Shown: positions 16,106 to 50,736 of the stretch, piece by piece
How the letters are laid out: the number at the start of each line of letters is the position of its first letter
How positions within the stretch are numbered: position 1 is the first letter of the stretch
Assembly: GCF_014203395.1 (NCBI RefSeq)
Contig: NZ_JACHIW010000001.1
Coordinates: forward strand, 2,170,001 to 2,234,000
DNA: 64,000 bases
Source: Saccharopolyspora phatthalungensis
GTDB lineage: Bacteria > Actinomycetota > Actinomycetes > Mycobacteriales > Pseudonocardiaceae
Direction: 5' to 3'
Translations under genes and position numbers: made by a program
The notes under the pieces: model-generated
What the model was told of the DNA's origin: nothing
Databases searched by the model: none
What the model saw: only the letters and a program-made list of their open reading frames with translations

Positions 16106-17029
16106 ATGGGTGCACGGGGGAAACCCAATCCACTGATCAAACCGAACGCGCTCAGCCGGACCGCGTCCGCTGGACTCGTCGGCCTCGCGATCATCGCGAG
16201 CACCGTCCTTGGTGGCGGGGCCGCCTACGCCGCCGACCCGCTGGTCGTCGACGAGCCGTCGGCGGTCGTTCAAGCAGAGGCCGGCCAGCAGATCCTCGTC
16301 GCGCCATCCACCCTCGGCTTCAAGGTCCGCCAAGCCGTGTTGCTGACCATGCCGCTGACCGGTCAGGCCAGCGACGCCGCCGACCGGTTCGCCGCGCTCG
16401 CGCCGATCCCGCTCGGCGCCGCCCGCGAAGGCCGCACCTTCTACTCCGGCAGGGACATCGCCGAGGCCGCCGCGCCCCGGCTCGCCGAGATCGGCCTGCC
16501 CGCCGACGGGGTCGACGCGGTGACCCGGTGCTTCATCGACCTGGTCAGCATCGGCAACTCCGTCACGGTGAACGCCGGAAAGCCCGAGGAAGAACCGCCG
16601 CCGCCCACGACACGCGAGTCCGCGCCCGGGCAGCCCCGGCCGACGCACCCACCGCAACCTGGCCCGACCACGTCGCCGGGCCCGACCGCGCCGCCGTCGA
16701 CGCCCACGACATCGGCACCGGCCCCGACGGTCAGCGAAGTTCCGGCGATGACCGGTGCCCTGCCGCCCCGCCTGGGCGAGTTATCGGGCAGATCGACGCC
16801 GTGGGCGCAGGCGCGCTCCGGCCTGGGCCCGAACCCGGACGACCTCGCGAGACAGGCCGAGGAGCGCCGGAAGGCCCGGGAGCAGCACGAGATCCGCGCC
16901 GCGGGCAAGGCCGAGGCGCTGCCCACCCAGGTGACCGATCGAGTCGCCGCCCCGGTGCTGCTCGCCGCGATCGCGCTCGCCGTGGTCACCGCGGCCCTCG
17001 TGCGCAGCTGGGTCCTTCGCCGCCACTGA
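16106..17029 (+). CDS. Secreted, C-terminally anchored Pro-rich protein, 307 aa
   Basis: The family is not recognised. From the ATG at 16106 (GGGAGG eight bases upstream) there is a signal peptide with hydrophobic core GLVGLAIIAS and an AYA-AD cleavage site near residue 45. A folded domain of about 110 residues follows, then a linker of about 60 residues very rich in Pro/Thr/Ser. A basic helical stretch (RQAEERRKAREQHE) precedes a final transmembrane helix with a short RRH tail. It looks like a cell-envelope protein whose linker crosses the peptidoglycan. It precedes rpsF in the same direction but is probably a separate transcript. Confidence 0.75.
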   Translation: MGARGKPNPLIKPNALSRTASAGLVGLAIIASTVLGGGAAYAADPLVVDEPSAVVQAEAGQQILVAPSTLGFKVRQAVLLTMPLTGQASDAADRFAALAPIPLGAAREGRTFYSGRDIAEAAAPRLAEIGLPADGVDAVTRCFIDLVSIGNSVTVNAGKPEEEPPPPTTRESAPGQPRPTHPPQPGPTTSPGPTAPPSTPTTSAPAPTVSEVPAMTGALPPRLGELSGRSTPWAQARSGLGPNPDDLARQAEERRKAREQHEIRAAGKAEALPTQVTDRVAAPVLLAAIALAVVTAALVRSWVLRRH

Positions 17030-17250
17030 CCCGGAAGCTGCCTTTTCGCTGGTCAGCTGCCGTGAGTGCGTCGGGGTGCCGCAGCGCCTCGACACAATCG
17101 GGGCTGTGACCTGCGCAGATGCCTCGGCGCGTCGCCCCCGTCGGCAGGGCTGTCGGGGTGGCTTGCTAGCCTTGTCCAGTTCGTCGACGCGACGACCCTC
17201 CTGCCACGGAAAGCCCGTGGCCGTGAGTCCACAGGAGGTGAATGGTCTTC

Positions 17251-17589
17251 ATGCGTCATTACGAAGTCATGGTCATCCTGGACCCGAGCATGGACGAGCG
17301 CACCGTCGCTCCGTCCCTCGAGAACTTCCTCAACGTTGTCCGCAACGACGGTGGCACCGTCGAGAAGGTCGATGTCTGGGGCCGCCGGCGGCTCTCGTAC
17401 GAGATCGAGAAGAACGCCGAGGGCATCTACGTCGTCCTGGACCTCAACAGCGAGCCGGCCACCATCAAGGAACTGGACCGGCAGCTGAACCTCAACGAGT
17501 CGATCCTGCGGACCAAGGTGCAGCGCAAGGTCGTGGAGCCCCGCAAGGCCGCTCGTGCCGCCAAGGCCCGCGCCAAGGCGTCTGCCTGA
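17251..17589 (+). CDS. rpsF: 30S ribosomal protein S6
   Basis: This is a 112-aa S6 protein ([19 protein letters not shown] start, [15 protein letters not shown] core) that binds 16S rRNA with S18. The start at 17251 follows the family consensus. An ATG at 17242 in the same frame would add three residues, and the perfect AGGAGGTGA (17233-17241) touches it directly, so the real start is ambiguous. It is the first gene of the rpsF-ssb-rpsR-rplI operon. Confidence 0.96.
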
Positions 17590-17632
17590 CCGGCCCCGAT
17601 CCCGCTAACGACCAGACTGGAGTACCGAGGTC

Positions 17633-18112
17633 ATGGCTGGTGAAACGGTAATCACGGTGGTCGGAAACCTGACCGCCGACCCGGAGCTGCGCTTCACCCC
17701 GTCCGGTGCCGCGGTCGCGAACTTCACGGTCGCCTCCACGCCCCGGACCTTCGACCGCCAGAGCGGCGAGTGGAAGGACGGCGAAGCCCTCTTCCTGCGC
17801 TGCAACATCTGGCGGCAGGCCGCGGAGAACGTGGCCGAGTCGCTGACCCGCGGCATGCGGGTCGTCGTGCAGGGCAGGCTGCGGCAGCGGTCCTTCGAGA
17901 CGAAGGAAGGCGAGAAGCGCACCGTCGTCGAGCTCGAGGTCGACGAGATCGGGCCGTCCCTGCGCTACGCCACCGCCAAGGTGAACAAGGTCAGCCGCGG
18001 CGGCAGTGGCTTCAGCGGCGGGGGCCCGGCGAGCAGCCCGGCCGACGACCCGTGGGGTTCCGCCCCGCCGGCCGGTTCCGGTGGTGGGTTCAGCGACGAG
18101 CCGCCGTTCTAA
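17633..18112 (+). CDS. ssb: Single-stranded DNA-binding protein
   Basis: At 159 aa, an N-terminal OB-fold ([46 protein letters not shown]) is followed by a Gly/Ser/Pro-rich tail ending in DEPPF, the acidic tip that recruits repair and replication partners. It coats ssDNA at forks. It lies 43 bp after rpsF and 45 bp before rpsR in the standard actinobacterial order. Confidence 0.97.
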
Positions 18113-18157
18113 ACGGCGCAGCAACGCTTACGAAGTTTTCGTTCAGGAGGAAGACCG

Positions 18158-18394
18158 ATGGCCAAGGCGCCCGTGCGCAAGCCGAAGAAGAAGGTCTGCG
18201 TGTTCTGCAAGGACAAGGCGGCGCAGATCGACTACAAGGACACGACGCTGCTGCGGAAGTACATTTCCGACCGCGGCAAGATCCGTGCCCGTCGCGTGAC
18301 CGGCAACTGCAGCCAGCACCAGCGCGACGTCGCCATCGCGGTGAAGAACGCCCGCGAGATGGCACTGCTGCCCTACACCTCGACCGCTCGCTGA
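18158..18394 (+). CDS. rpsR: 30S ribosomal protein S18, zinc-binding form
   Basis: The protein has 78 aa and pairs with S6 on the 30S platform. CVFC near residue 14 together with C-SQH around residue 50 gives the four-ligand zinc-binding (C+) version, not the zinc-free paralogue induced under zinc starvation. CAGGAGGAAGACCG provides a strong ribosome-binding site. Confidence 0.97.
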
Positions 18395-18412
18395 CCCGGA
18401 AGGAGACACGTC

Positions 18413-18865
18413 GTGAAGATCATTCTCACCGCTGACGTGACCGGTCTCGGCGAATCCGGCGACATCGTCGAGGTCAAGGACGGTTACGCGCGTAACTACC
18501 TGCTGCCCCGGGGCCTGGCCATCGTGGCCACCAAGGGCGCGCAGAAGCAGATCGAAACGATTCGCCGCGTGCAGGAGAACCGCCGGGTGCGCAACCTGGA
18601 GCACGCCCGCGAGTTGAAGCAGCAGCTGCAGGACCTCGGCGCGATCACGCTGACCGCGAAGGTGTCCTCGCAGGGCAAACTGTTCGGTTCGATCACCAGC
18701 GGCGACGTCGTCACCGCGGTCCGCAAGGCCGGTGGCCCGAACCTGGACAAGCGCACCGTCGCACTGCGCGGTCACATCAAGTCGCTGGGTAAGCACGTCG
18801 TCGACGTGCAGCTGCACCCGGACGTGACGGCCGCCGTCAACGTCACGGTCGCCGGCGAGCAGTGA
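18413..18865 (+). CDS. rplI: 50S ribosomal protein L9
   Basis: The 150-aa two-domain L9 begins [21 protein letters not shown] with [13 protein letters not shown], then a long connecting helix and the C-terminal RNA-binding domain. It binds 23S rRNA at the L1 stalk base. GAAGGAGA precedes the GTG start. It is the last gene before the hairpin at 18889-18937. Confidence 0.97.
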
Positions 18866-18888
18866 CCCGGTAGTACCGGTTTCCACAA

Positions 18889-18937
18889 CGCAGCATCGTC
18901 CACTCCGGCATTCGTGTGATGGGTGGGCGATGCTGCG
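18889..18937 (+). terminator. Hairpin after rplI
   Basis: The arms CGCAGCATCG (18889-18898) and CGATGCTGCG (18928-18937) pair perfectly, with further partial pairing inside (TCCAC with GTGGG). It begins 24 bases after the rplI stop and separates the ribosomal operon from dnaB. No U-run follows, as is common for actinobacterial terminators. Confidence 0.6.
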
Positions 18938-19086
18938 TCCGGTGCACGCACCGATGGTCACGGCGGAAGCGAAGCCTCGCCGATCCCGACACGCTGAAGA
19001 CGGCGACACGCCGGGACTTTTCCACGGGTTTCTTCCACAGCCTGTGCACGGCAGTTGACCTGGGGATTCTTCTCGATCATGGCGAC

Positions 19087-19182
19087 TTGTCCCCAGGTTG
19101 TCCCCAGCTGTGCGGAAGGCTCGCGGAAGTTATCCCCAGCTCAATTCAATCTATCCACAGGTTGTCCAGAGCTTTATCCACA
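19087..19182 (+). promoter_or_regulatory. Array of DnaA-box-like 9-mers upstream of dnaB
   Basis: Six sites lie in one orientation: TTGTCCCCA (19087), TTGTCCCCA (19098), TTATCCCCA (19130), CTATCCACA (19151), TTGTCCAGA (19162) and TTATCCACA (19174). The last is a perfect classical DnaA box. Starts are spaced 11, 32, 21, 11 and 12 bp, close to whole helical turns, so all face one side of the helix. Weaker relatives lie at 19018 (TTTTCCACG) and 19031. Known DnaA biology suggests control of dnaB expression or DnaA titration; this is inference. Confidence 0.65.
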
Positions 19183-19280
19183 GCTGGATTTGCCTGCTCC
19201 GGGCGGGCGATCTAGCTTCGCGCGCGGGCTCTCGCCCACTACGCGTGATCGTCTTGGCGCCGGAGGAGGTGACGGGTCCG

Positions 19281-21749
19281 GTGGCGGTGCCCGACGAGCG
19301 GGAGGATCCGTACTTCGCCAGCGAGGGCGGGTCCGGCAACAACACCTTCGAACGGCAGCCCCCGCAGGACCTCGCCGCGGAGCAGTCGGTCCTCGGCGGC
19401 ATGATGCTGAGCAAGGACGCGATCGCCGACGTCGTCGAGGTGTTGAGTCCCAACGACTTCTACCGGCCCGCGCACCAGGCGATCTACGACTGCGTTCTCG
19501 ACCTCTACGGGCGCGGTGAACCGGCGGACGCGATCACCGTGTCGGCCGAGCTGGAGCGCCGCCAGGAACTGCTCAAGGTCGGCGGCGCACCGTATCTACA
19601 CACCCTGATCGCCACCGTGCCCACGGCCGCGAACGCCGGTTATTACGCGGAAATCGTTTCGGAGAAGGCGATCCTGCGCCGCCTGGTGGAGGCGGGTACC
19701 CGGATCGTGCAGCTCGGCTACCACGGCTCCGAGGGCGCGGCGATCGAAGAGATCGTCGACCGCGCCCAGTCCGCGATCTACGACGTGACGGAGCGCCGGG
19801 CCAGCGAGGACTACCACGCCCTCGAAGAACTCCTCCAGCCGACGATGGACGAGATCGACGCCATCGCCTCCCGAGGGGGAGAATCCCAAGGCATCCCAAC
19901 GGGCTTCACCGACCTGGACGCCTTGACCAACGGCCTCCACCCAGGGCAAATGATCATCGTCGCGGCCCGACCAGGTGTGGGCAAGGCGCTGGCGCTCGAA
20001 ACACCGCTGCCGACCCCGGATGGCTGGACCACGATGGGTGAGGTCGCGGTCGGCGACTACCTGATCGGCGCGGACGGCAAACCGACCAAGGTCGTCGCGG
20101 CAACCGAGGTTATGCACGACCGGCCCTGCTACGAGGTCGAGTTCTCCGATGGCACGGTCATCACTGCCGATGCCCAACACCAGTGGTTGACCGGCACCCG
20201 GGCATCGCGGAAGTCGGCGCAAGCCGCTGCGGTCGGATACAACGGCTACCGCAACCAGCGAACCTTCGCGGAAGTGCGGACGACCGAGGAAATCGCGGCG
20301 ACCCTGCGCTGCGACACGGCCGATCGACGGCTCAACCACTCGGTGAACGCCGCACGGGCGCTCGACTTGCCGGAGCGAGATCTCCCCATCGCGCCCTATG
20401 TGCTGGGCGTCTGGCTGGGTGATGGCACATCGATGTCGGCTGCCTTCACGAGTGCCGATCCCGAGATCGCGATGTACGTGGAAGCGGAGGGTTACCACGC
20501 TCCGCGAGTGCGTGACCGTTACTACCGGATCCAACCGACGTGCGGTCTGCGCCAGGGCCAGGCATGCCGGAATGAGCCGGGAACTGTTCAAGCCCTGCTC
20601 CGGACGATGGGAGTACTGGGCAACAAGCACATCCCGGCCGAATACCTCCGGGGTTCCGAATCCCAACGCCGTGCGATTCTCGCGGGTCTTCTCGACACCG
20701 ACGGCACGGTGGCACCGAGCGGATCCGTGCAGTTCAGCGTGACGAGTGAGCGACTGGCACGCGATACGTACGAGCTCATCGTCGGCCTCGGCTATCGCTG
20801 CACCATGACGACCAAGAGGGTCCGTGGCCGAACGGAAGCGTCGTCCACGGCCTTCACGCTCACGTTTACCACGCAGGACGAGGTTTTCCGGCTGAACCGC
20901 AAGAAGTTGGTTCACAAGGAGCGCAACGCGCGTTCACCTCGGATGGTCGGCACTCGCTTCATCACTGACGTGCGGCTGGTGGCGAGCGTGCCGGTTCGGT
21001 GTGTGGAGGTGGACTCTTCGGACCACCTTTACCTGGCGAGCCGATCGATGATCCCGACCCACAACTCGACGCTCGGGTTGGACTTCGCCCGGTCGGCATC
21101 GGTGAAGCACGGGCTCGCGAGCGTCATCTTCTCGCTGGAAATGGGGCGCACCGAGATCGTCATGCGCATGCTCTCCGCCGAGGCCCGGATCCGGCTCGGC
21201 GACATGCGCGGTGGCCGGATGACCGACGACGACTGGACGCGGCTGGCGCGACGGATGAGCGAGATCAGCGAGGCGCCGCTGTTCGTCGACGACTCACCGA
21301 ACCTGACGATGATGGAGATCCGCGCGAAGGCCCGGCGGCTCAAGCAGCGCCACGACATCCAGCTGATCGTCGTGGACTACATGCAGCTGATGACCTCCGG
21401 CAAGCGCGTTGAGTCCAGGCAGCAGGAGGTCTCGGAGTTCTCCCGAAACCTCAAGCTGCTCGCCAAGGAGCTCGAAGTCCCGCTGATCGCGATCTCCCAG
21501 CTCAACCGAGGCCCGGAACAGCGAACGGACAAGAAGCCCCAACTATCCGACCTGCGCGAAAGTGGTTCGCTCGAACAGGATGCCGACATGGTGATCCTGA
21601 TCCACCGGCCGGATGCGTTCGAGCGAGACGATCCGCGAATGGGCGAAGCCGACCTGATCCTGGCCAAGCACCGCGCCGGTCCAACCGCAACGATCACCGT
21701 CGCCCACCAACTGCACTACAGCCGCTTCGTCGACATGGCCCAGGAATAA
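19281..21749 (+). CDS. dnaB: Replicative DNA helicase DnaB with in-frame intein
   Basis: Encoded as 822 aa: about 462 aa of helicase split by a 360-residue intein. The N-terminal domain starts MAVPDERED and contains PPQDLAAEQSVLGGMMLSKDA. The RecA-like domain has ARPGVGK interrupted by the intein and resuming at STLGLDFARS, then VVDYMQLM (Walker B) and the arginine-finger region near LAKHRAGPT. DnaB unwinds DNA ahead of the fork as a hexamer. GTG 19281 is chosen because homologues begin MAV and GGAGGAGGT (19262-19270) lies upstream; the frame is open further 5' through the DnaA-like boxes. Splicing must rejoin the P-loop Lys and Ser before the helicase can bind ATP. Confidence 0.95.
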   Translation: MAVPDEREDPYFASEGGSGNNTFERQPPQDLAAEQSVLGGMMLSKDAIADVVEVLSPNDFYRPAHQAIYDCVLDLYGRGEPADAITVSAELERRQELLKVGGAPYLHTLIATVPTAANAGYYAEIVSEKAILRRLVEAGTRIVQLGYHGSEGAAIEEIVDRAQSAIYDVTERRASEDYHALEELLQPTMDEIDAIASRGGESQGIPTGFTDLDALTNGLHPGQMIIVAARPGVGKALALETPLPTPDGWTTMGEVAVGDYLIGADGKPTKVVAATEVMHDRPCYEVEFSDGTVITADAQHQWLTGTRASRKSAQAAAVGYNGYRNQRTFAEVRTTEEIAATLRCDTADRRLNHSVNAARALDLPERDLPIAPYVLGVWLGDGTSMSAAFTSADPEIAMYVEAEGYHAPRVRDRYYRIQPTCGLRQGQACRNEPGTVQALLRTMGVLGNKHIPAEYLRGSESQRRAILAGLLDTDGTVAPSGSVQFSVTSERLARDTYELIVGLGYRCTMTTKRVRGRTEASSTAFTLTFTTQDEVFRLNRKKLVHKERNARSPRMVGTRFITDVRLVASVPVRCVEVDSSDHLYLASRSMIPTHNSTLGLDFARSASVKHGLASVIFSLEMGRTEIVMRMLSAEARIRLGDMRGGRMTDDDWTRLARRMSEISEAPLFVDDSPNLTMMEIRAKARRLKQRHDIQLIVVDYMQLMTSGKRVESRQQEVSEFSRNLKLLAKELEVPLIAISQLNRGPEQRTDKKPQLSDLRESGSLEQDADMVILIHRPDAFERDDPRMGEADLILAKHRAGPTATITVAHQLHYSRFVDMAQE
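19986..21065 (+). mobile_element. DnaB P-loop intein with LAGLIDADG homing endonuclease, class 3 features
   Basis: The insert lies between Lys and Ser of the Walker A GVGK-ST. Its first residue is Ala (ALALETPLPTPDGW), so the usual N-terminal Cys/Ser nucleophile is missing. It ends PTHN followed by Ser. Block B has TADAQHQW (Trp), block F has PVRCVEVD (internal Cys) and block G has the Thr of PTHN: together the Trp-Cys-Thr set of class 3 inteins, where the internal Cys makes the first attack. Two LAGLIDADG-type motifs (VLGVWLGDG and ILAGLLDTDG) mark a homing endonuclease that looks complete. The 1080-bp length is an exact multiple of 3. Confidence 0.9.
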
Positions 21750-21995
21750 CCCGCCTGTGTAGGGTCTCATTTTCGGCTGCACTTTCTCACGGATCGCTGC
21801 ACTTGGGCTGCACTTGTGCAGTCGACGTGAGATTGGGCCATCTGTGGTGGACGCGAGCACCGCAGTGCCCGTTCTTTGGGGCGAGAGCTTCACGGCAGCC
21901 TGACTGGTCGGATCACGTCCACGTCCGTCCGGCACACTCCGCGAGCTCGCGCGAGCTGCTGTGGCCCTCGGCCTACGCCGTGATAGGAGGCTCTG
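21750..21995. other. Intergenic region after dnaB with short direct repeats
   Basis: No gene is evident. GCTGCACTT occurs three times in one orientation (21776, 21796, 21807). TGTAGGGTCTCA at 21758-21769 is the reverse complement of the 12-mer that closes the long repeat at 23282-23326, and 10 of its bases match the one at 22555-22599. The right end contains a strong ATAGGAGG ribosome-binding site (21983-21990) for the disrupted DinB gene. Confidence 0.5.
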
Positions 21996-22473
21996 ATGGG
22001 TTCGTTCGATGTGCCGCTGGACGATGAGCGCCCAGCTCGATGCATTCGTCGAGGAATATCGCAGCGCCATTGAGGCGACTCTCGACGGTCTCACCGAGGA
22101 ACAGGTTCGCCGCCAGCTCGTCTCGTCGGCGACGACACTGCTAGGGCTGCTCAAGCACGTCACGTGGATGCAGCGGGTTTGGTTTGAGGAGTGCGTCGGC
22201 GGCACGTCCCGCCGGGAACTCGGCCTGGTGCAGAGTCCGGATGAATCCTTCCGACTCTCCGACGACGACACCGTCGCCTCGATCACGGCAGCCCACCGGG
22301 AAGCCTGTGCCATAGCCCGGACGGCGATCGCAGACCTGCCACTGGACGCCGTCGTGATGGGCCACCGGGCCGGACCGCGCACGCTTCGCTGGGTGTACCT
22401 GCAAGTTCTGCGGGAGCTGGCCCACCATTGCGGACACGCCGACATCCTGCGCGAACAGGTACTTGCAGACTGA
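21996..22473 (+). pseudogene. DinB/DUF664-family protein with N-terminal frameshift
   Basis: The well-placed start (ATAGGAGGCTCTG-ATG at 21996) encodes MGSFDVPLDDER, then runs out of frame. The next frame carries the rest of the fold from AQLDAFVEEYR (near 22024): TTLLGLLKHVTWMQRVWF, with a metal-type His, and ELAHHCGHADILRE with the other His ligands. The two pieces join naturally if two bases (GC) are restored after CGC near 22029. DinB-like proteins are metal-dependent thiol-transferases or of unknown role. It could still be translated from an internal ATG at 22021, which lacks a ribosome-binding site, or the shift could be a sequencing error. Confidence 0.65.
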
Positions 22474-48127: not shown

Positions 48128-50736
48128 CCACCTCGACGGCGACGGCGCCGGCCGCGACAGCGCCGGCCCGCCGGGACGGGAGTGCCGAGCCCGCCGCGGA
48201 ATCGTCGATGACGCATCGGCAGATCCTGGAGGCGATGTCGGGCCTGATGTTGGCGCTGTTGGTCGCCATCCTCAGCTCGACGATCGTGTCGAACGCGCTG
48301 CCCCGGATCATCGCCGACCTCAATGGCACCCAGGGCCAGTACACCTGGGTGGTCACGGCGATGCTGCTCACCTCGACCGCGTCCACCCCGATCTGGGGCA
48401 AGCTCGCCGACCTGTTCAGCAAGAAGTTGCTCTACCAGTTGGCCATCACGATCTTCACGGCCGGCTCGGTGCTCGGCGGGTTCGCGCAGTCGATGGAGAC
48501 GCTCATCGGTTTCCGTGCCCTGCAGGGCATCGGCATGGGCGGCCTGCAGGCGCTGATCCAGGTCGTGATCGCCGCGATGGTCGCCCCGCGCGACCGCGGG
48601 CGCTACAGCGGCTACATCGGCGCCACCTTCGCGGTCGCCACGGTCAGCGGTCCGCTCGTCGGCGGGCTCATCGTGGACACCCCCTGGCTGGGGTGGCGCT
48701 GGTGCTTCTGGGTGACGGTGCCGATCGCCGTGATCGCCTTCATCGTGCTCGGCAAGACGCTGAAACTGCCGGTCATCAAGCGGCCGGTCAAGATCGACTG
48801 GTTCGGTGCGTTGTTCCTGGTCGGCGGCGTGAGCCTGCTGCTGGTGTGGGTCTCGCTGGCCGGCAAGCAGTTCGACTGGTGGTCGGTGGAGACCGCGTCC
48901 TACGTCGGTGGCGGCCTGCTCGCCCTGCTCATCGCGGTGGTGATCGAGACCAAGGTCAGCGAGCCGATCGTGCCGCTGCGGATGTTCCGCAATTCGACTG
49001 TCACGCTGGCCACCATCGGCACCGTCGCGGTCGGCACCGCGATGTTCGGCGGCGCGGTGTTTCTGGGGCAGTATTTCCAGATCGCGCGCAGCTTCACCCC
49101 GACCATCGCGGGGCTGATGACGCTGCCGATGGTCGGCGGGCTGTTCATCTCCTCGACCGTGTCCGGCCAGATCATCTCCAGGGTCACCGGCAAGATCAAG
49201 CCGTTCCTGGTGATCGGCTCGATCGTGATGGTCGCCGCGATGGGACTGCTGAGCACCATCGATCACGAGACGAACCTGGTGCTGGTCGGGGTCTACCTGT
49301 TCCTGATGGGCACCGGGGTCGGCATGTTGATGCAGAACCTGGTGCTGGCGGTGCAGAACTCCACCAGCGGCAAGGACATGGGGTCGGTGACCTCGGTCGT
49401 GACGTTCTTCCGGACCCTCGGCGGTTCGGCGGGTGTCTCGGTGCTGGGCGCCGTACTGGCCACCCGGGTGTCGGACTACATCATGCAGGGGCTGGCGAAG
49501 ATCCCCGGTGCCGCGCGGGCGGCCGGATCGGGCGGCGGCTCGCTGGACGTCAACCACCTGCCGGAGCCGGTGCAGACCATCGTGCGAGCGTCCTACGGCG
49601 ATGCGATCGGCGACATCTTCTTTGTCGCCGCGTGCGTCTCGGTGGTCACCTTCCTCGCGGTGATCTTCCTCCGGGAGGTTCCGCTGCGCACTACGGTCGA
49701 CAGTCATGGGGGAAAGGAGCCGGTTGCGATGACCGCGCACGACGCTGTGGACAACTTGACTCAGCCTGTGGACAACTCGGCCGCGACGCGTCTCGTGCCG
49801 AACGGCTCTGCCCAGCTCGGGGGTGTCGGCCCACGGCCCGGGCGACCGACCGCCGAGCCTGTGGACAACTCTGTGGATGACGACTTGGATGCCTGGTCAG
49901 AGCCGGTCGGGCCGCGTCGCTACGCGGTCAACGGCAAGCACTTGGCGGGCAACCTGGCGACCCCGGTCGACGGGGGTGGGCTGTTCGTGCACGGCACCGT
50001 CCATGACTCCATCGGCACCCCGGTCCCCGGCGTGGTGCTCACCCTGACCGACGCCAACGGGCGGCAGGTGGAGCGCGCCCGCGCCGACCAGGACGGGCAG
50101 TTCCGGCTCGCGGTCGGCCACGGCGGCACCTACGTGCTGATCGCCTCCGGCGGCAGCTACCAACCGACCGCCTCGATGGTCGTGGTCGCCGACCGCCCGG
50201 TGCGCCACGACGTGCAGCTGCTCGGCGCCGGGCGGCTTACCGGCCTGGTGCACGTCGGCGGCCAGGGCGTCGCCGGGGCGATGGTGGTGCTTACCGACGT
50301 CCGCGGCGAGGTGGTCTCCGCCGTCGGGACCGGATCGGATGGGCACTACCTCTTCGCCGACCTGGTCGGCGGGGCCTACGCGCTGACCGTCACCGCGCCC
50401 GGCTACCGGCCGGTGGCGAACTCGGTCACCGTGACCGACGGCGAGCAAGCCACCATGGACGTCGCGCTGCAGGCGGGCACGCAGCTAAGCGGCGTGGTCC
50501 GGTCGGCCAACCTCAGGGTCGCGGTGCCCGATGCGCGGGTGACGCTGCTGGACTCCGGTGGGGCCGTCGTCGGCGCGGCCACCACCGACATCGACGGCAA
50601 TTACACCTTCACCGACCTGCCGGACGGCGAGTACACGGTGATCGCGACGGGTTACCCGCCGATCGCAACGCCCTTGCGGCTCTCGGGCGAGCAGAGCACG
50701 CACGACGTCGAGCTCGGCTACCCGCAGGCCGACTGA
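48124..50736 (+). CDS. DHA2-family MFS efflux pump with three C-terminal carboxypeptidase-regulatory-like domains
   Basis: At 870 aa, residues about 30-545 are a 14-helix EmrB/QacA-type proton antiporter (SGLMLALLVAILSSTIVSNA, ALPRIIADL, GFRALQGIGMGGLQ, WRWCFWVTVPIAVIAF). A Pro/Asn-rich linker of about 75 residues (PVDNS repeats) leads to three tandem beta-sandwich repeats, each of the form GTVHDSIGTPVPGVVLTLTD ... DGQFRLAVGHGGTYVLIASG. Such prealbumin-like domains are usually extracellular or periplasm-facing binding modules. A fusion of this size to a drug pump is unusual. The linker DNA contains consensus DnaA boxes (49746-49880). The neighbouring YceI gene carries one more copy of the domain. 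Confidence 0.92.
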   Translation: MTTSTATAPAATAPARRDGSAEPAAESSMTHRQILEAMSGLMLALLVAILSSTIVSNALPRIIADLNGTQGQYTWVVTAMLLTSTASTPIWGKLADLFSKKLLYQLAITIFTAGSVLGGFAQSMETLIGFRALQGIGMGGLQALIQVVIAAMVAPRDRGRYSGYIGATFAVATVSGPLVGGLIVDTPWLGWRWCFWVTVPIAVIAFIVLGKTLKLPVIKRPVKIDWFGALFLVGGVSLLLVWVSLAGKQFDWWSVETASYVGGGLLALLIAVVIETKVSEPIVPLRMFRNSTVTLATIGTVAVGTAMFGGAVFLGQYFQIARSFTPTIAGLMTLPMVGGLFISSTVSGQIISRVTGKIKPFLVIGSIVMVAAMGLLSTIDHETNLVLVGVYLFLMGTGVGMLMQNLVLAVQNSTSGKDMGSVTSVVTFFRTLGGSAGVSVLGAVLATRVSDYIMQGLAKIPGAARAAGSGGGSLDVNHLPEPVQTIVRASYGDAIGDIFFVAACVSVVTFLAVIFLREVPLRTTVDSHGGKEPVAMTAHDAVDNLTQPVDNSAATRLVPNGSAQLGGVGPRPGRPTAEPVDNSVDDDLDAWSEPVGPRRYAVNGKHLAGNLATPVDGGGLFVHGTVHDSIGTPVPGVVLTLTDANGRQVERARADQDGQFRLAVGHGGTYVLIASGGSYQPTASMVVVADRPVRHDVQLLGAGRLTGLVHVGGQGVAGAMVVLTDVRGEVVSAVGTGSDGHYLFADLVGGAYALTVTAPGYRPVANSVTVTDGEQATMDVALQAGTQLSGVVRSANLRVAVPDARVTLLDSGGAVVGAATTDIDGNYTFTDLPDGEYTVIATGYPPIATPLRLSGEQSTHDVELGYPQAD
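49746..49880 (-). promoter_or_regulatory. Cluster of DnaA-box-like sites inside the MFS gene
   Basis: The consensus actinobacterial box TTGTCCACA (minus strand) occurs at 49746-49754, 49767-49775 and 49860-49868, and a related TGTGGATGA at 49872-49880. All have the same orientation. Spacings of 21, 93 and 12 bp approximate whole helical turns. The boxes encode the VDN repeats of the protein linker, so the peptide may be a by-product of DNA-level selection. Confidence 0.6.

Follow-up and report, generated by a model that had tools for sequence, protein, structure and literature searches.

How helicase supply is matched to initiation is, to our knowledge, little studied in actinobacteria, and the interval between rplI and dnaB of Saccharopolyspora phatthalungensis raises the question in concrete form: is the row of DnaA-box-like 9-mers lying there a genuine array of DnaA sites, and does it act on dnaB? 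We analyzed it in a window of 64,000 nucleotides (positions 2170001-2234000 of contig NZ_JACHIW010000001.1, in an 8.54-Mb assembly of 6 contigs), in which rpsF, ssb, rpsR, rplI and dnaB were assigned via NCBIfam and the start of dnaB was set at the GTG at 19281. Among the matches listed, the closest relatives of this rplI are those of Saccharopolyspora species (best identity 95%). In window coordinates the interval and its two flanking genes comprise:

18413..18865, plus strand: rplI, ribosomal protein L9 (TIGR00158)
18888..18938, plus strand: terminator-like hairpin 3′ of rplI (folding versus shuffles; alignment)
18988..19013, plus strand: two copies of a conserved non-DnaA element, GACACGCTG (18988) and GACACGCCG (19005) (alignments)
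19018..19039, plus strand: weak DnaA-box-like pair, TTTTCCACG (19018) and TCTTCCACA (19031), 2 mismatches each
19087..19106, plus strand: DnaA boxes 1 and 2, tandem with a 2-bp gap, TTGTCCCCA (19087) and TTGTCCCCA (19098)
19130..19138, plus strand: DnaA box 3, TTATCCCCA (motif match; alignment)
19151..19159, plus strand: DnaA box 4, CTATCCACA (motif match; alignment)
19162..19170, plus strand: DnaA box 5, TTGTCCAGA (motif match; alignment)
19174..19182, plus strand: DnaA box 6, perfect TTATCCACA (motif match)
19190..19218, plus strand: predicted dnaB promoter, TTGCCT (19190-19195), 17-bp spacer, TAGCTT (19213-19218)
19281..21749, plus strand: dnaB, replicative helicase with an intein-like insertion inside (TIGR00665, 518 bits; PF00772, PF03796, LAGLIDADG_3)

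The hairpin region (18866-18960) folds at -51.1 kcal/mol (z -4.74; none of 200 shuffles equaled it), and by eye the inverted repeat after rplI is retained in 11 of 14 aligned Saccharopolyspora-type sequences; with so strong a hairpin after rplI, dnaB is probably transcribed on its own, apart from rplI. Searches of 17000-22000 against Rfam and of plasmids for a similar stretch returned no match. The insertion in dnaB is in frame, spans approximately 19990-21015 and gives the LAGLIDADG_3 match. At the weak 19018/19031 sites, the alignment places better boxes of other genera close to the same position.

The six 9-mers near TTRTCCACA are all on the plus strand where the original prediction put them, one being perfect and the other five deviating by 1 mismatch each, and the claimed spacings of 11, 32, 21, 11 and 12 bp are likewise correct. 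Such a row is far beyond what composition yields: six boxes compare with about 0.1 expected from shuffled sequence, and the maximum number of same-strand boxes in 5000 dinucleotide-preserving shuffles, applied to the 415-bp spacer and to 19018-19190, was 2. The whole window has 25 sites of this kind versus 9.9 expected, and the assembly has 92 exact TTRTCCACA sites versus 39 for the reversed control. With several TTRTCCACA-like 9-mers in excess of chance, this is, by sequence, a putative DnaA-box cluster outside oriC. Its internal arrangement is also distinctive, as tandem boxes separated by 2 bp (up to 3 mismatches) number 16 in the assembly versus 10 for the control, the sole exact one (TTRTCCMCANNTTRTCCMCA) in all 8.54 Mb being boxes 1-2, and boxes 4-5 being one of two pairs that deviate by one or two mismatches. 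Tandems with a 3-bp gap number 31 versus 13 for the control; five of these have a single mismatch, among them boxes 5-6, a pair 5′ of dnaA and a pair in a second cluster of the window (see below). Box pairs 2-3 bp apart are reported to be favored by E. coli DnaA (PMC11317965).

The original prediction called for a comparison of box number and phasing across relatives, and named relatives without conserved boxes as the outcome that would speak against it. We looked for that outcome and found the opposite: family members share the presence of boxes, their orientation bias and their phasing, and the wider class does so more loosely. Three samples were used: 68 rplI-dnaB spacers (67 loci plus the window, the loci coming from 80 of 499 confirmed, 13 of these 80 having no dnaB in the flank); a class sample (59 genomes searched, 58 matched, one ending at a contig end and 57 analyzed, from 28 families); and a family sample (60 searched, 59 matched and analyzed), the last two including the S. 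phatthalungensis genome itself. Among the matches listed and the window, every spacer has at least one box (68/68, relatives within the order not being independent). Boxes number 294 in the 35.4 kb of the 67 listed spacers versus 66 in the 383.8 kb making up the remainder of those loci, the corresponding counts for the reversed pattern being 11 and 22. In the family, at least two boxes are present upstream of dnaB in 59/59 genomes and at least three in 54/59. Across the class, the kilobase upstream of dnaB has at least one box in 55/57 genomes and at least two in 47/57, with enrichment at p<=0.05 in 48 of the 57 (200 shuffles each); nine genomes miss this level, including the two with no box in that kilobase. 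A motif-free 9-mer search of the class recovered TTATCCACA in 17/57 genomes (0.10 expected) and TTGTCCACA in 18/57 (0.27 expected), both among the most enriched words. A DnaA-box region upstream of dnaB is thus a conserved actinobacterial feature (59/59 in the family, 55/57 in the class).

This conservation belongs to dnaB. We rejected the array as an rplI element: family dnaB loci with no rplI detected upstream keep the boxes in 13/13 cases (in about 1.5-1.8 kb of upstream DNA), whereas 12 of the 13 listed rplI loci with no dnaB in the flank are boxless downstream of rplI (at most 3 kb seen, 545 bases at one locus). The boxes therefore track dnaB rather than rplI. As an aside, records titled Melainabacteria, Acidobacteria and Nocardia among the matches listed have spacers like those of Pseudonocardiales or mycobacteria, which suggests mislabeled or misbinned contigs.

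What the boxes adjoin at dnaB is a promoter-like element. TTGCCT-like and CTAGCTT/CTAGCGT elements directly after the last box are conserved in the alignments, and the predicted -35 lies 7 bp from box 6. A -10-like motif, CTA[AGC]C[GTC]T, which we defined after viewing the alignments, occurs in 61 of the 68 spacers among the matches listed (expected fraction 0.22 by mononucleotide shuffling) and is absent from 7. The distance from the last box to this motif takes preferred values in these listed sequences, namely 38-40 (22 sequences), 50-51 (25), 60-62 (9), 94 (3), 103 (1) and 158 (1); in the window, the six boxes lie 125, 114, 82, 61, 50 and 38 from it. Taken over all boxes, the phase strength relative to the -10 motif is 0.88 at period 11 for the 61 listed sequences (273 boxes), 0.87 for 26 hand-picked representatives of the 68 and 0.64 for those class genomes (17 of 57) that have both motif and boxes; in each of these three sets, all 2000 random rotations stayed below the value observed. 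Between 38 and 182, boxes of the 61 listed sequences fall on about 12 steps and leave those near 136 and 147 empty, and the class genomes also have off-ladder positions (e.g., 131 and 143). The array would stand at a predicted dnaB promoter, with a conserved, phased promoter-like element next to box 6 and a start site that is itself a prediction.

The same periodicity is seen among the boxes themselves. The near-helical spacing claimed for the window has a coherence of 0.96 at period 10.75, matched by 0.4% of random non-overlapping placements; from the window alone, this is suggestive, and it is the comparative data that carry the phasing. Across the class, boxes on the same strand tend to lie about 11-12, 22, 33, 44, 55 or 65 bp apart. 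When TTRTCCMCA sites may deviate at one position, there are 151 same-strand distances in the range 9-70 bp, which give a vector strength of 0.82 at period 10.75 (the 99th percentile for 151 random distances is 0.22), and 150 of them fall inside six narrow intervals near multiples of 11, which were fixed after viewing the distances and span 48% of the integers 9-70; at two mismatches, 517/573 distances fall inside the same intervals. The strength is 0.84 with the stricter TTRTCCACA (90 pairs), 0.83 with one genome per family (44 pairs), 0.82 with S. phatthalungensis and its order-mates removed (68 pairs) and 0.81 at period 11 in the family sample (330 pairs), all of these values being descriptive since pairs inside one genome are not independent. 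Orientation is biased as well, with 130 plus versus 38 minus boxes upstream of dnaB in the class, and opposite-strand pairs there are phased more weakly (0.48 at best; 45 pairs). As a control we used boxes up to 1.5 kb downstream of dnaA in 30 of 59 class genomes, which are partly phased, less tightly than at dnaB and in both orientations (0.57 for 57 same-strand pairs, at most 0.61 for 40 opposite-strand pairs; 62 plus versus 54 minus). Because the dnaA-dnaN boxes are also partly phased, phasing at dnaB may reflect the geometry of the DnaA oligomer alone; at E. coli oriC, spacing between boxes by whole helical turns is reported to matter (PMC4285127, PMC5043065).

DnaA binding upstream of dnaB has reported precedents. 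In Caulobacter, DnaA reportedly controls replication genes and is said to bind upstream of dnaB (Hottes 2005, as cited in PMC7738170). M. tuberculosis DnaA binds upstream of dnaB (the Rv0057 region) in vitro, ChIP-seq in M. smegmatis places DnaA at homologs of the same five targets, dnaB upstream included, and an M. tuberculosis DnaA variant combines weaker binding upstream of dnaB with lower dnaB expression, a result for one allele in which the effect could be indirect (PMC7738170). DnaA upstream of dnaB is thus known in mycobacteria and cited for Caulobacter. The mycobacterial region resembles the present array in serving the same gene and in that mycobacterial rplI-dnaB spacers of the order have TTRTCCACA-type boxes, but its recognizable boxes are fewer (1-4 at one mismatch among the matches listed), and the pertinent sections of the mycobacterial report make no mention of phasing or promoter-locked spacing (PMC7738170). 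Sites of the E. coli DnaA regulon, such as that of purH, are similar in that the boxes preceding a gene are paired with a gap of 2-3 bp, but purH has a single pair (PMC11317965) as against six boxes over 96 bp here and about 12 occupied ladder steps in the listed relatives. For four of the five mycobacterial DnaA targets, we found likely counterparts with boxes in the S. phatthalungensis genome. The cluster at 2014655-2014698 of the window's contig, which neighbors CrgA and bPH_6 genes, is the likely counterpart of Rv0010c-Rv0011c, Rv0011c being crgA. Boxes are also found 5′ of the genome's own dnaA, at 2034638 and 2034650.

We consider it probable that the array is a DnaA control region that activates the dnaB promoter and thereby couples helicase supply to initiation. 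At the sequence level, this is supported by the boxes, their orientation bias, spacing and conservation, and their helical phase to a conserved -10-like element. DnaA very likely binds the array in S. phatthalungensis. It would do so cooperatively on the tandem boxes, lining up in one orientation on a single face of the DNA over about 100 bp; this row would end just upstream of the -35 and could help RNA polymerase to start dnaB transcription, so that helicase supply would rise with active DnaA, the signal that fires oriC. We infer activation instead of repression, as well as the nucleotide form in which DnaA would act, and favor activation because the boxes are all upstream of the -35, are phased to the -10 and have a mycobacterial parallel in the variant that under-expresses dnaB. 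Of the two functions originally offered for the array, linking helicase synthesis to initiation and titrating DnaA, both of them proposals for S. phatthalungensis, the first is the better supported.

The second, in which the main role of the array is to sequester or reset DnaA once the fork has passed and its location at dnaB is secondary, strikes us as rather unlikely, and repression strikes us as weaker still; both fall behind activation. Titration could make use of strong tandem boxes lying about 157 kb from the dnaA-dnaN box cluster, a distance at which they would be copied early, and it has models in the B. subtilis and S. coelicolor clusters, also outside oriC, which are likened to E. 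coli datA and described in a review as repressing untimely initiation (PMC5742627). The array here differs from these in being tied to dnaB, which it follows where dnaB and rplI are separate, and in being phased to the predicted -10, neither of which titration alone requires. Negative feedback, in which bound DnaA lowers dnaB transcription as at some other promoters, draws on the several B. subtilis genes apparently repressed by DnaA (PMC4447404) and on the description of dnaA as autoregulated (PMC7738170); it is hard to reconcile with six boxes that all lie upstream of the predicted -35 with zero overlap and with weaker binding in M. tuberculosis being accompanied by reduced, not raised, dnaB expression (PMC7738170), and we rate its chances as low. 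An accessory or relic origin, in which strand opening or the loading of helicase would begin at the array, would suit the number and density of the boxes and the G+C content of 54% over 19018-19186 versus 68% for the window, but the usual place of the origin, between dnaN (2030360-2031475) and dnaA (match at 2032790-2033848), both on the minus strand of the window's contig, already has a ten-box cluster (2031737-2032173), and conservation tracks dnaB and its promoter-like element, making this a very improbable reading. Chance or a compositional artifact has practically no standing and was rejected, being contradicted by shuffles of which none of the 5000 reaches six boxes, by a 48-fold box richness of the listed rplI-dnaB spacers over neighboring DNA and by conservation across the class.

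Activation of dnaB by DnaA admits a bolder form, which we advance tentatively and regard as rather less than an even prospect: dnaB promoters across the class would hold DnaA positions at 11-bp steps, a ladder in fixed register with RNA polymerase, on which a same-face row of DnaA contacts the polymerase, such that dnaB output measures the available active DnaA in an ancient feed-forward link between initiator and helicase. As part of this reading, species would gain and lose boxes almost only on the rungs of one ladder, about 12 of which are occupied in the order. In the literature searched, outside which subscription papers mostly fall, we found no class-wide, mostly single-orientation dnaB ladder phased to a promoter-like element. 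A promoter that seems designed to gauge how much DnaA is bound, and is conserved as far as families distant from Saccharopolyspora, would offer a simple and testable link between initiator and helicase, and the ladder would be a natural ruler for the packing of DnaA on double-stranded DNA.

The boxes are accompanied by other conserved elements. GACACG is present in 67/68 rplI-dnaB spacers (among the matches listed, window included) but in 18/57 class genomes, and the GACACGCCG-type pair pattern occurs 4 times in the assembly versus 1 for the control. We take GACAC to be the WhiA motif, which could link WhiA to the GACACGCCG pair. A further candidate element, TGACCTGC, was noted with this pair, and a possible likeness to the MtrA site GTCACAGCG, as listed in PMC4285127, amounts to 6/9 letters. 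Between the box groups, TGACCTG (19057-19063 of the window) is conserved in the family alignment, and CTGACCTGC or its complement is found upstream of dnaB in 16/57 class genomes versus 0.5 expected.

Additional DnaA-box clusters were detected in the genome and family. The second cluster of the window (49746-49880, minus strand) has three exact TTGTCCACA and TCATCCACA, and lies inside a reading frame, in the linker of an MFS transporter that is extended at its C terminus. Of 22 genus genomes, S. phatthalungensis included, 16 have this cluster and the other six are boxless in the stretch seen. At three homologous V-D-N-type motifs (one V-E-K), a T at the wobble position is what completes the box, and 48/48 positions chosen by amino acid have it, against a background of T in 523/8677 fourfold-degenerate codons of the same frames; not just the protein but also the DNA thus seems to be under selection. 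MFS transporter loci of other family genomes have box clusters in 13/29 cases, 9 of which include an exact pair at a spacing of 21 bp, the 29 being the best-matching loci listed, related by match and at most presumed orthologs; one of those listed (L287) has nine sites within one mismatch. The S. phatthalungensis genome also has mixed-orientation clusters of 4-6 boxes at three further places. One reading frame at the third was tried against Pfam with no match; of the other two, one is near an inorganic pyrophosphatase gene and the other lies between AlgH-like and phytase-like genes.
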